DNA from: an uncultured Halobacteriovorax sp.
GTDB taxonomy: Bacteria > Bdellovibrionota > Bacteriovoracia > Bacteriovoracales > Bacteriovoracaceae
Length of the DNA stretch: 64,000 bases
Assembly: GCA_913061265.1 (NCBI GenBank)
Contig: CAJXVS010000009.1
Coordinates: 124,001 to 188,000, forward strand
Direction: 5' to 3'
Of the stretch, positions 44,048 to 48,629 are shown one piece after another (position 1 is the first letter of the stretch; every line of letters begins with the position of its first letter). Under the pieces are notes generated by a model. The model was given only the letters and a program-made list of their open reading frames with translations, was not told the DNA's origin and did not search any database. The position numbers were made by a program, and so were the translations under genes.

Positions 44048-44593
44048 GTAGGCAGAGTTCGTTTTCTTCTTTTGAATGAGCTTAAAAGAATTCAGAAATG
44101 GTTCAACATACTTCTCATCTTTAATACAAAAAAAGATTAAGCCTTCTTTGTTAATCACTTCCTTCATCTTTTTAAAGAAAACTTCAATGCCATCAATTTC
44201 AAAAGTACGGCATACTTGCCTATTCCTTTTATCTGAAACTTTCCCTGCCCCAGGTTTAAAATAAGGAGGATTGGAAAAGATAATATCTGCCTTTCCTTGA
44301 AATTGACTAAAGGATTGATTTATAACTTTAGCATTATTTATCTCGGCTTGGATTAAGTTCTCTTCAATATGTTTTATAAATTCTTTTTGAACTTCAAGAA
44401 ATGTCATTGATGTAATACTTGGATTTTTGAGTAGAGCTTCAATTCCTATGACACCACAACCAGCTCCAAAATCAATCGCTGTATTCAAATCATTCCTTAG
44501 AGCTAAAACCTTAGAGGCAAAATCAACAAGCTCCAGAGACTCTTCAGCAAAATGATAGAATTCAGGTTGTGAGTAATTTGAGATGTTCTTCAA
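44015..44593 (-). CDS. TrmN6-like SAM-dependent methyltransferase
   Basis: 192 residues, class I SAM fold: AIDFGAGCGVIGI (SAM loop) and the N6-adenine-type motif IFSNPPYFK. These match tRNA1(Val) A37 N6-methyltransferase (TrmN6/YfiC). It overlaps the YrdC gene by 32 bases and the convergent DciA-like gene by 33. It is shorter than E. coli TrmN6 (245). Confidence 0.75.
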   Translation of the reverse strand: MKNISNYSQPEFYHFAEESLELVDFASKVLALRNDLNTAIDFGAGCGVIGIEALLKNPSITSMTFLEVQKEFIKHIEENLIQAEINNAKVINQSFSQFQGKADIIFSNPPYFKPGAGKVSDKRNRQVCRTFEIDGIEVFFKKMKEVINKEGLIFFCIKDEKYVEPFLNSFKLIQKKKTNSAYLFCLSRLDID

Positions 44594-45146
44594 TTTCCCC
44601 TACTCTAGTTCCTGATCTTAGAATCTTAAAGTCTTCCGTCTCACTAATAATTACGATGGTTGAAGAGTGACCGCTTAATGTTTCTGTAGATTCGAAAAGC
44701 TGTGCATTAGGAGCAATCTTTTCTTTTAAGGATTTTACTTTTTCTAAAGATGAGAGCGCTGCTTCACCTTTTAAGTTAAAACTAGTTGTATAGACTGGTC
44801 CTCCTGATACAGAGAACATAGACGAGATTTCGTTAGTATCTAAAACCCTAACGCAGATAAAATCTGATCCAGAATAAGCTTCTTTTGGAATCTCTTTTTT
44901 CAGCCAACTGACTGGAAGTCCAAGGGTTGCTTCTAGCTGAAAAAGGTGAATTAACCAATCACGATCAAGAAGCTCCAGCATAAAATAGTCTGAGAGCATA
45001 TCAAGGTTTAAAAAAAGGACTGAAAGCGGCTTAACTTCTTGATGCCCTTTTATCTTATTAACTAAGAGGGCCATGCCTTTAGTATGAATAGAACCACCTA
45101 TTCCCCAGACAGTATCGGTAGGATAAATAAAAACTCTCTCACTCAT
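44562..45146 (-). CDS. YrdC/Sua5-family protein (TsaC-like)
   Basis: 194 residues from the ATG at 45146, which overlaps the upstream stop as ATGA. It has the YrdC motif IYPTDTVWGIGG, KPLSVLF and the late RSGTRVGEIEEHL. The family makes threonylcarbamoyl-AMP for the t6A37 tRNA modification. The next gene is also a tRNA-modification enzyme candidate. Confidence 0.8.
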   Translation of the reverse strand: MSERVFIYPTDTVWGIGGSIHTKGMALLVNKIKGHQEVKPLSVLFLNLDMLSDYFMLELLDRDWLIHLFQLEATLGLPVSWLKKEIPKEAYSGSDFICVRVLDTNEISSMFSVSGGPVYTTSFNLKGEAALSSLEKVKSLKEKIAPNAQLFESTETLSGHSSTIVIISETEDFKILRSGTRVGEIEEHLKLLTT

Positions 45147-46195
45147 AAGACATACCACCAAAAAAGATCCGTGTCTTTTTCACCAAGTAAAAAGAGATTA
45201 TATAAAGCAAATTGCGAAGGGAGTCCACTTCTCAGTACTTCTTGATAAACATCTCTCTTTACTTTAAAAAGTGGTCTCATATAGCTTTTATCGAATTTCC
45301 CTAGTGTTTTCTGTATAGCTTCTTTTTCGAGAATCTCACTTAAGACTAAGCTGTCATGTATACTCGTCGTTTTCTTCACGAACTTCTCTAACCTCTTGTC
45401 CAACAACTCTCTTCTATCATCACCTGGATAAAAATACTTAAGAATCCAAAACTCTTCTCTAGGCATTCTTTTGATGGCACTCTTTTTTAGAACACCATCC
45501 AAGAAGTTATTCACTTCAGATTTTGTGGTCCTATTTTCTAAAACATTAAACCATAACCCAATTCCTGATTGACCGTATTCCCGGCTCGTCACAAATTCTC
45601 GGAGTTCATTCAAAGACCAGTTCGCGTTAAAATAAGAAGTGAACCTAGACTTTTCTTTAGTAGGAAGAAAGAAGATCAACCTAGTGGCGATCATTCTTAC
45701 AAGCATTGGATCAAACTTCTTAACCTTCATCAAATTTAAAGTATCAAATAGAGCTTCGATATATTGTAGGTAAAGCTTATTAGTAAACTTTCTTGGTTCA
45801 ATATAAGAAGCGAATTGAAGATCAGAAGTATTGACCAATCTCTTGCCTAACTTTCGAACCCATTCTTTATTATCGGTTCTGAGAGCTACAGAGAGTTCAA
45901 GTAAGAGCCTTAAGGGGTTTTGAATGGGTACATCCTCAGCAAACTTCAAATGGGAATAGAGGTCTTTGTATTTTAAGGTTTTCGGTGGGTTTTCAATGGC
46001 AATTGATGATACTTCAATGAAGCGCTCCACCAATGAGACTTGCTTATTGAACTTTCTCTTTAATTCAAAGATTGAAAGCACTGTCTTTTGCTGCTCAATA
46101 TTCGCCCCAGAGGATACTAAGTATTTACTTAAAGTCTTTGAGTCCCTTAAGTCAGATTTGCTTAGATTTAATAAGATGAGAAAACTCTTATCCAT
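45143..46195 (-). CDS. Unknown protein, probably the C-terminal part of the GYF-TM gene upstream
   Basis: 350 residues from the only ATG, but the frame stays open for 73 more codons up to a stop at 46415-46417. None of those codons is ATG, GTG, TTG or CTG, and they read as protein-like sequence (for example NLIKCERVKDFFVKFYILL). The ATG at 46195 has no Shine-Dalgarno. A -1 shift on the nine A residues at 46408-46416 (read on the minus strand) would join this frame to the GYF-TM protein. The body is helical and charged with no motif I know. If fused, it would lie beyond the membrane segment, that is, in the periplasm. Confidence 0.6.
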   Translation of the reverse strand: MDKSFLILLNLSKSDLRDSKTLSKYLVSSGANIEQQKTVLSIFELKRKFNKQVSLVERFIEVSSIAIENPPKTLKYKDLYSHLKFAEDVPIQNPLRLLLELSVALRTDNKEWVRKLGKRLVNTSDLQFASYIEPRKFTNKLYLQYIEALFDTLNLMKVKKFDPMLVRMIATRLIFFLPTKEKSRFTSYFNANWSLNELREFVTSREYGQSGIGLWFNVLENRTTKSEVNNFLDGVLKKSAIKRMPREEFWILKYFYPGDDRRELLDKRLEKFVKKTTSIHDSLVLSEILEKEAIQKTLGKFDKSYMRPLFKVKRDVYQEVLRSGLPSQFALYNLFLLGEKDTDLFWWYVL

Positions 46196-46383
46196 TTCTA
46201 AGAAGCATCTATTAATAAACTCTTCAAAGCTACTCGTTCTTTCTTCCGATTTTGATAAAAGAATATAGAATTTAACAAAGAAGTCTTTAACTCTTTCACA
46301 CTTTATTAAATTAGGAACTTGAGAGGCTTTGATATCAAAACCTTTAATATTTAAAGTAGGAGAAAAAACTAAATCGTCTCCAG

Positions 46384-47367
46384 CTATATCTTTAAAATTA
46401 AAAAGGCTTTTTTTTTAACAAGACTACTTTGAGCATGCACTTTAGGGATAAATATTTCCATAACCTGATTTCCTATAAAAGGAAGTGGCTTATTTAAGAC
46501 TTTTTTATAATAAAAGATGACGGAGGCCACAAGAAAAGTGACGCAAAAGATAGCGGTAAGAGCAAAAAGTAACTTATCGTTTCGTTGCTTCTTTCTGACT
46601 TTAGGAGCCTTCTTCCCAGCGCTAGATCGAGGGACCTTAGCTTTTGGAGCAGCTATATTTTTCTTAACAGCTATAACTTCTGGAGCTGGAGTTGGTGCCG
46701 GTGCTTTCACAGGTTCTACTACTGCCTCTAATGGCGTAATTCCAGGGTCCGTTTCTTCTTCGAATTCACTTATTGAAGGATTCGTCTCTTCGTCAAATTC
46801 ATCTAGAACAATATTATCATCTGTCGCTTCTGAATCAGATCCCATATCCATATCAGGATATTCTAAGTCATCATCCCCAGGGAGAAGACCTTCTAGTTCA
46901 TCTTCAGGATTAACTTCTACAGGGATAGGTTTTGAGGCAGCAGGGGCCACAGAAGGAGCTGGGCTTGTATCAAGAGCATCGAGTGACATATCCCCTGAAG
47001 GAGATCCCATGTCTGGATACTCAAGATCTCCATCGTCAGGAAGGATAACTTCGTCAACGCCAGCTTCCTTAGCTTTAATTGGTTTTGTAATCTTATTATG
47101 AGTACCCGTTTGCTCTGCTGAATTATTCGCCGTTAAAACGTTGGGCGCTTCAGAGATAGGGTTAAAGGTTTGAGGAATATTTCCTAAAAGGTATTTTTCA
47201 ACGAGGTCTTGTTCTTTAATTAAAAACCAATAGCCATTTCCACAAGTCACTTCATCTTCCCCTTTCAGGGAACCCTTGTTTAAGAACTCGATAATCTTTT
47301 CTTTAGATACTGGACCTAGTATCTGAAAATTCGAAGTTCGAATGAGCCAGTTTTTTTCTTTTATCAT
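46384..47367 (-). CDS. GYF_2-domain, acidic-linker, single-TM protein
   Basis: 327 residues. A GYF_2 module is at residues about 4-60 (EKNWLIRTSNFQILGPV, GNGYWFLI). A 170-residue acidic linker with repeated DDxLEYPDM words follows (GDLEYPDMGS, DDLEYPDMDM). A basic patch and one membrane segment come next (LLFALTAIFCVTFLVASVIFYY). It ends soon after, in VHAQSSLVKKKAFLILKI. The last seven residues follow the A9 run and are probably out of frame. It resembles other GYF proteins such as 31038-31835, so the family is expanded here. Confidence 0.7.
   Translation of the reverse strand: MIKEKNWLIRTSNFQILGPVSKEKIIEFLNKGSLKGEDEVTCGNGYWFLIKEQDLVEKYLLGNIPQTFNPISEAPNVLTANNSAEQTGTHNKITKPIKAKEAGVDEVILPDDGDLEYPDMGSPSGDMSLDALDTSPAPSVAPAASKPIPVEVNPEDELEGLLPGDDDLEYPDMDMGSDSEATDDNIVLDEFDEETNPSISEFEEETDPGITPLEAVVEPVKAPAPTPAPEVIAVKKNIAAPKAKVPRSSAGKKAPKVRKKQRNDKLLFALTAIFCVTFLVASVIFYYKKVLNKPLPFIGNQVMEIFIPKVHAQSSLVKKKAFLILKI
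46408..46416 (-). promoter_or_regulatory. A9 slip site: candidate -1 frameshift
   Basis: On the minus strand the run reads GTT-AAA-AAA-AAA-GCC in the GYF frame. Slipping back one base gives AGC and continues in the downstream frame for 423 codons. One extra A would give the same single frame. The site may be used for programmed frameshift, transcript slippage or phase variation, or it may be an assembly indel. Confidence 0.5.
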
Positions 47368-47513: not shown

Positions 47514-48629
47514 TTAGGCCTTCGAATATGTTCTGGGAACTCGCTCAGTTAGGGAGCAAAAAAGAGTATAAGGCGTATTTCTTGATTCATCAGAAAGGTC
47601 CATGACAGAGCTTTGCTCATTATTCCAAACTTGAAACATATCTCCCCTTTTATAGGGGCAACTGCCTTCGTAAAAGACTTGCGCCATATCCATATTTACT
47701 CGTCCAAGGACTCTTCCTCCTGCCATATGAGAGCTCTGGTATGTGGTCTGAAAACCATCTCCATAACCTAAAGCTATCACGGCAACTTCTCCAGCTTCCG
47801 GACTCGGAGTCGCTCCATAACCAACAGGCTGGCCACGATCGACTTTGAATACTTTGAGTACTTCAGTCTTAAGCGTGGAGATATTTTCTCCCTGCCAAAG
47901 AGATTGATTCCTAATAGGTGGAATCAAAGAACTTGGTCCATAAAGCATAAGCCCTGGCCTAACATGAGATTCATCAAATCCAACCCCTTGTTCTATTGCC
48001 CCTGAATTTGAGATTGATGTTTGATCTACCGAAACCCCGCTCCCCTTAAAAGAAGATTTGAGGCTTTCCCAATTCTTTATTTGTCTTTTGTTATGAGAAT
48101 TCGTCTTCATAGAGTTTGCGGCACAAGCAAAATGGGTCATCAGATGATCAATAGATCTTCTTCCACTTTTCTTTAAAAGATTTACTACTTCTTCAACTTG
48201 ATCCATCTCAACACCAAGCCTATTCATGCCAGTATTAAAATGAAGTCTTAAAGGAAAGTTTTTAAATCCAGGGTCTTTTAAGAATATTTCTAAGTCGATT
48301 AAATCAGAAATAACAGGAATGATTCGGTGGCTTTGGTACAATTCACGAAGCTCATCATTGCTAAATTGAAGCTCAGAAAAAACACTCGCCTCAAATTTAA
48401 GCCCTGGTAACTCAGTCCGAAGCTTTATAGCTTCTCCTAATGAGGCTAGGCCAAACTCTTTGATGCCGATAACTTCATTGGCAAAACGAGTTGTGCTAAC
48501 AAGGCCATGCCCATAGGCATTGGCCTTAACCATAAAGATAATTTCATTGCCTCTTATAATTTTCGATAACTTTTGAAAATTTCTTTCTAGGACTGAAAGG
48601 TTAACATTGAGTTCCGTTTTAAATCTCAT
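47514..48629 (-). CDS. alr: Alanine racemase
   Basis: 371 residues. The PLP lysine lies in MVKANAYGHGL near residue 35. It continues with the family-typical FNTGMNRLG and a C-terminal domain with VNMDMAQV and the catalytic Tyr in VGYGATPSP. It interconverts L- and D-alanine for peptidoglycan. It follows the receiver-like gene by 3 bases. The 146-base gap 47368-47513 to the GYF gene holds no gene. Confidence 0.92.
   Translation of the reverse strand: MRFKTELNVNLSVLERNFQKLSKIIRGNEIIFMVKANAYGHGLVSTTRFANEVIGIKEFGLASLGEAIKLRTELPGLKFEASVFSELQFSNDELRELYQSHRIIPVISDLIDLEIFLKDPGFKNFPLRLHFNTGMNRLGVEMDQVEEVVNLLKKSGRRSIDHLMTHFACAANSMKTNSHNKRQIKNWESLKSSFKGSGVSVDQTSISNSGAIEQGVGFDESHVRPGLMLYGPSSLIPPIRNQSLWQGENISTLKTEVLKVFKVDRGQPVGYGATPSPEAGEVAVIALGYGDGFQTTYQSSHMAGGRVLGRVNMDMAQVFYEGSCPYKRGDMFQVWNNEQSSVMDLSDESRNTPYTLFCSLTERVPRTYSKA

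Follow-up and report, generated by a model that had tools for sequence, protein, structure and literature searches.

To our knowledge, conserved chromosomal genes that depend on polymerase slippage are few and comprise dnaX, secretion-system genes and IS elements. In Citrobacter rodentium, additional A's are inserted at an A11 run in tssM at a frequency of 20-25%, and both resulting products are needed (PMC4256274). The templated frame of tssM3 in Yersinia pseudotuberculosis is the opposite one, whereby slippage leads to the short form in one of these species and to the long form in the other (PMC4256274). The dnaX gene of Thermus thermophilus and other bacteria carries an A9 or A10 run and yields two products of different length in several species (PMC1088944, PMC3711429). 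It is also at A9 that selection against slippage usually becomes apparent (PMC1088944). Furthermore, transcriptional slippage makes needed products from mxiE, mxiA, spa13 and spa33 of the Shigella type III secretion system (T3SS), as cited in PMC4256274 and PMC5009743.

Here, we describe a gene of the genus Halobacteriovorax that can be compared with each of these systems. Like tssM1 and tssM3, it combines an A run near a premature stop with an inner-membrane protein whose slipped or full-length form would gain a periplasmic C-terminal domain. However, the proteins are unrelated, and tssM sites are rare among homologues, whereas the site described here is kept over an order; slippage has been proven for tssM, while for the present gene we infer it. 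As in dnaX, two products of different length are expected from an A9/A10 run in several species, but the templated frame in Thermus leads to the long product and here, in most species, to the short one, and the proteins are again unrelated. With the Shigella T3SS genes it would share the occurrence of slippage in operons for envelope machines, although the proteins are unrelated and no order-wide conserved site is described in PMC4256274 or the first part of PMC5009743. In most genera, though not in the window genome, it directly follows mlaD in the operon of the phospholipid ABC transporter MlaEFD, but neither Pfam nor NCBIfam relates its C-terminal domain to any Mla component. Two features by which slippage genes of the tssM and dnaX type are recognized are found here, namely an A run of at least nine at the transition and conservation of this transition with protein selection downstream.

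Neither Bdellovibrio nor Bacteriovorax is mentioned in PMC3711429, and Bdellovibrio is absent from the first part of PMC5009743. No description of this gene turned up when open-access literature was searched for the lineage together with slippage, a result that does not by itself prove novelty. If our reading is correct, the gene would represent an order-wide case of slippage, situated in an envelope operon and found in predatory bacteria as well as their relatives. The naturally occurring variants (broken, fused, split and two-site) allow the purpose of the slippage to be tested by comparison. Annotation pipelines probably call the gene truncated, or two fragments, in many genomes.

The window, i.e., the whole stretch of 64,000 nucleotides analysed here, carries the gene on its minus strand, and the GYF-TM (transmembrane) frame is broken at a run of nine adenines (T9 on the plus strand). 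After GTT AAA AAA AAA, the 0 frame encodes AFLILKI before its stop, seven codons past the run, while the -1 frame stays open from within the run for 423 codons. The first ATG, GTG or TTG of the -1 frame is its codon 74, no CTG precedes it in the printed sequence either, and reading of that sequence revealed no Shine-Dalgarno (SD) motif at this ATG. All of these positions had been given in an earlier note on this DNA (the run, the stop of the GYF frame, the 423-codon frame with its 73 startless codons, and the ATG lacking an SD motif), and re-reading of the sequence confirmed every one of them. The coordinates are collected in Table 1.

Table 1. Features of the putative slippage gene and its neighbours in the window.
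Feature	Position	Strand	Description
0-frame ORF	46384..47367	-	327 aa: GYF module, acidic linker, TM, AxAQ motif, KKK, 7-codon tail; predicted short product
GYF_2-like domain	47182..47352	-	about residues 6-62 (NWLIRT...ILGPVSKEKI...GNGYWF); weak Pfam GYF_2 match
Acidic disordered linker	46648..47142	-	repeated LPxxDDLEYPD-like motifs; low pLDDT
Transmembrane segment LLFALTAIFCVTFLVASVIFYY	46507..46572	-	Lys/Arg-rich N side; hydropathy 2.6
VHAQ, AxAQ-type motif	46429..46440	-	signal-peptidase-like; kept in relatives, median 7 residues before run
A9 run, predicted slippage site	46408..46416	-	AAA AAA AAA in frame 0
0-frame tail AFLILKI and stop TAG	46384..46407	-	sequence
-1 frame, predicted exported alpha-helical domain	45143..46414	-	423 codons without usable start; second half of predicted long product
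First ATG in -1 frame	46193..46195	-	rejected start: no SD; loses folded, conserved residues and both near-invariant Cys
tsaC/sua5 gene, downstream	44562..45161	-	overlaps 3' end; adjacency kept in most of the relatives examined
alr (alanine racemase-like), upstream	47514..48629	-	mlaE-mlaF-mlaD lie between in most relatives

The assembly that contains the window comprises 3.97 Mb in 12 contigs and holds 69 A/T runs of at least nine, both strands counted. Almost all of these fall between genes, and about six are in-frame runs inside ORFs. Two long frames, that of the window gene among them, are broken by such a run with no normal gene start behind it. The A9 frame break of the window gene is far beyond chance.

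In a set with one genome per species, the order is represented by 129 genomes from 48 genera, and the C-terminal (C) part is present in 99 of these genomes and 40 of the genera. Named relatives, found by profile search, are Halobacteriovorax MAGs and one Halobacteriovoraceae MAG. Genus g14 (14 genomes, same family) has no C-part homologue in the genomes listed, where it is absent or too divergent. The frames of the 87 genomes that hold both parts were traced by a frame-path search in which switches were allowed only inside A runs of at least seven. The gene is broken in 72 of these, the window genome included, and forms a single ORF in the other 15, counts of related genomes that do not equal independent events. 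The frame shifts -1 once in 67 of the broken genes, +1 and then -1 in three, and +1 once in two, which makes the final shift -1 in 70 genes and +1 in two. All 75 switch sites are A9-A14 (A10 in 50, A9 in 12), and none falls in the permitted runs of seven or eight. These counts derive from the frame-path results rather than from the site table, as the automatic placement of the TM failed in about nine genomes.

The three genomes of the window genus share the A9 run and the -1 break, and a -1 break is found in 25 of 30 genera. Two further genes whose N-terminal (N) part is lost at a contig end (L004 and L056) have an A9 or A10 run at the same place. Run lengths drift while the -1 phase is kept, with A14 and A12 in two species of genus g8, and A12 and A10 in two species of g7. 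In a quick tree of the C domain with long branches, the break lies on all main branches, whereas the fused and split states are scattered, requiring several changes. The gene is real and conserved, and it is very probably programmed to give two products. The earlier proposal that a -1 shift joins a GYF module, an acidic linker and a TM to a large exported domain is strongly supported by the recurrence of the break at A9-A14 runs and by relatives that encode everything as one ORF. The comparison with such relatives, which the earlier note had suggested, revealed the complete domain order in L007, L014, L015, L030, L043, L078 and others. As a separate observation, the C parts of two sister species in genus g24, L191 (G120) and L192 (G121), are 79% identical, and the frame is shifted by +1 at an A11 run in the former versus -1 at an A10 run in the latter.

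The codon pattern behind the run was analysed over the first 72 whole codons of the -1 frame. Most substitutions fall on third positions, as the counts by codon position show for the genera g1 (57/40/104) and g60 (162/109/250), and over the same segment the -1 frame has a lower dN and a higher dS than the other frames. By this pattern, the frame following the run is under protein selection. The run itself also stands out from its surroundings. Elsewhere in the N part, AAA makes up 67% of Lys codons and KKK is encoded entirely by AAA in 24 of 92 cases; therefore, the unbroken run of nine or more A's at the junction is selected. Furthermore, the 0-frame stop follows the run at a median of two codons, compared with eight at control places (P = 3e-9).

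The Pfam GYF_2 profile (PF14237) matches the window protein with an E value of 0.16, under the gathering score, and 7 of 14 homologues at E ≤ 0.1 (best 6.7e-4), also below the cut-off. The region is modelled well, with a pLDDT of about 90 over residues 1-60. In L004 (G021), about bases 1-250, the linker has a very long, nearly pure Glu stretch of 35 or more residues. An A-x-A-Q-like motif (AHAQ, VHAQ, AYAQ or similar) precedes the run in about 60 of 68 parsed -1 junctions, at a median distance of seven residues, the search pattern being loose enough that a few of the 60 matches are not AQ. Located after the TM, this motif resembles a signal-peptidase site, and cleavage there is possible.

The AlphaFold model of the C domain has a pLDDT of 93.3 and a pTM of 0.91 and is confident over residues 1-73 as well, i.e., over the segment that lacks a start codon. 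It is predicted to form a short beta hairpin followed by helices, and Cys39 and Cys70 are near-invariant. No convincing match to this domain was found in Pfam, NCBIfam or the PDB sequences, and a Foldseek search with the model gave no hit with E below 0.05. The best VIA-align match has a Z of 7.2 over 73 residues, and only generic helical-repeat proteins, such as LbcA, were matched; we claim no fold family for this domain on the basis of such matches.

Combined, these observations make it likely that the gene yields two products through slippage on its adenine run, with RNA polymerase as the slipping enzyme. Most transcripts would have nine A's at the run, as templated, and encode a short protein (about 327 residues) made up of the cytoplasmic GYF domain, the acidic linker, the TM and a brief tail. 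If a slip of RNA polymerase inserts one extra A (net -1), the 423-residue periplasmic domain would be joined to this protein, resulting in a protein of about 740 residues. The unslipped product would thus lack the exported helical domain of roughly 420 residues that the slipped product carries, and the slippage rate would determine how much exported domain is made relative to the N part. Insertion of one A by RNA polymerase would explain the run length, the direction of the shift and the occasional +1 site.

If the ribosome instead made a programmed -1 shift on A_AAA_AAA, both products would arise without any editing of the transcript. Such a mechanism fits a shift that is almost always -1, and every run has, or can have, a correctly phased A_AAA_AAA, as in GTT AAA AAA AAA GCC of the window gene; runs of A9-A10 are also slippery for ribosomes. 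However, a heptamer of seven bases would be enough for the ribosome, yet every switch site is an A9 or longer, and the two genomes with only a +1 shift and the three with +1 at the upstream run do not fit. In addition, neither type of stimulator signal was detected: an SD-like sequence lies upstream of the run in 8 of 70 cases compared with 62 of 1047 control windows, which is no enrichment, and no extra structure was found downstream, where the MFE is not different (paired P 0.33). Some ribosomal shifts function without stimulators. Transcriptional slippage is preferred over ribosomal slippage because SD and hairpin enrichment is lacking, the runs are never shorter than nine and a second run sometimes has the opposite shift; a +1 shift before the TM followed by -1, as in the three genomes, would be natural for a polymerase but not for a -1 ribosomal site. 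We consider the ribosomal mechanism unlikely.

Homopolymer runs also mutate, and the earlier note had raised phase variation, in which replication slippage at the run would toggle the exported domain within a population. Genus g24, which holds a single-ORF (ON) state beside broken states, would be in line with such switching. It is a poor fit to the frames as a whole, since a random phase would produce -1, 0 and +1 about equally, in contrast to the 70, 15 and 2 genes observed. The retention of -1 while the run length differs between sister species, and the identical break throughout the window genus, point the same way, making phase variation very unlikely. A further explanation is that two separate proteins are made and the C part initiates at its own codon, as is the case in five relatives, at least four of which supply a signal peptide ending in AQ. 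In the window gene, such a start is rejected: the first 73 codons offer none, and initiation at ATG 46195, which lacks an SD motif, would drop the beta hairpin and both near-invariant Cys residues and leave no export signal. The position of the first start also varies among relatives, and two separate proteins are highly improbable here. The earlier note had regarded its own idea as refuted if homologues always encoded the two parts as separate genes, but only 5 of 92 genomes encode them separately, and there the C part is initiated independently. Finally, the break could reflect a mistake in sequencing or assembly, or a pseudogene in decay: homopolymers are classic error sites, and an A10 break elsewhere in the window genome is private (L140, described below). 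The same break is nevertheless present in about 70 independently assembled species, including the near-complete chromosome G004, and the frame downstream of it evolves as a protein. The simple assembly error that the earlier note named as a refutation was not found, the break being shared by many assemblies, and on this conservation and codon pattern both error and pseudogene are rejected as practically negligible.

Against polymerase slippage, our preferred reading, stands that the slip is dispensable in some lineages, as seen from the 15 single ORFs and five split genes. Of the single-ORF relatives, 14 keep a run of at least nine somewhere in the gene, in at least 11 cases after the TM, and most of those with a post-TM run have a second one before the TM. 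These in-frame runs would allow slippage to yield the short form instead. The C part is encoded separately in L005, L057, L062, L074 and L202. In the first four of these, the C part starts independently with a signal peptide that ends in AQ, and the N part stops short of a TM; in L202, which has no run path, an own start near the break is likely. Because the split relatives supply a start and a signal peptide, the C domain appears to be exported in its own right.

An A9-A13 run before the TM was found in roughly half the genomes, an approximate count based on automatic TM placement, and in most cases this run is in frame. Three genomes, G122, G081 and G141, require +1 at this pre-TM run and -1 at the second. 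Shifts at the first run are -1 in G129, G034, G110 and G010, and +1 in G148. The window species has no first run, only the second. Tentatively, and with more doubt than confidence, we suggest that two tandem slippery A runs bracketing the TM might sort the products order-wide and thereby set location and stoichiometry in an envelope operon. Slippage or its absence at the first run would decide between a soluble GYF protein and a membrane-inserted one, and at the second run between the anchored short form and the form with the exported domain. Some species would then need opposite shifts (+1 then -1) on one transcript.

The gene lies directly after mlaD in 82 of 91 loci, in the order mlaE-mlaF-mlaD-gene-tsaC (checked against Pfam in one genome). 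No MlaE or MlaD match was found in the window genome (G000), and no MlaD match in two g7 genomes (G008 and G139); in all three, the gene is kept beside alr. The mla system thus seems to have been lost from these genomes. Since the gene is kept without MlaD, an obligate role in the Mla system is unlikely. We propose an envelope function, perhaps together with the Mla lipid transporter, and the protein may perhaps act as a scaffold that connects a cytoplasmic GYF partner to the periplasmic helical domain. No family or structure match supporting a more specific function was obtained from Pfam, NCBIfam, PDB, Foldseek or VIA-align.

The window genome contains a second -1 break, at an A10 run in a small gene for an exported protein (G000:C1:628232-628241; L140, L203). 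Both congeners of L140 (L204 and L205) have one intact ORF there and no long run; therefore, this break is private to the window genome and may have arisen from an indel, slippage or an error.
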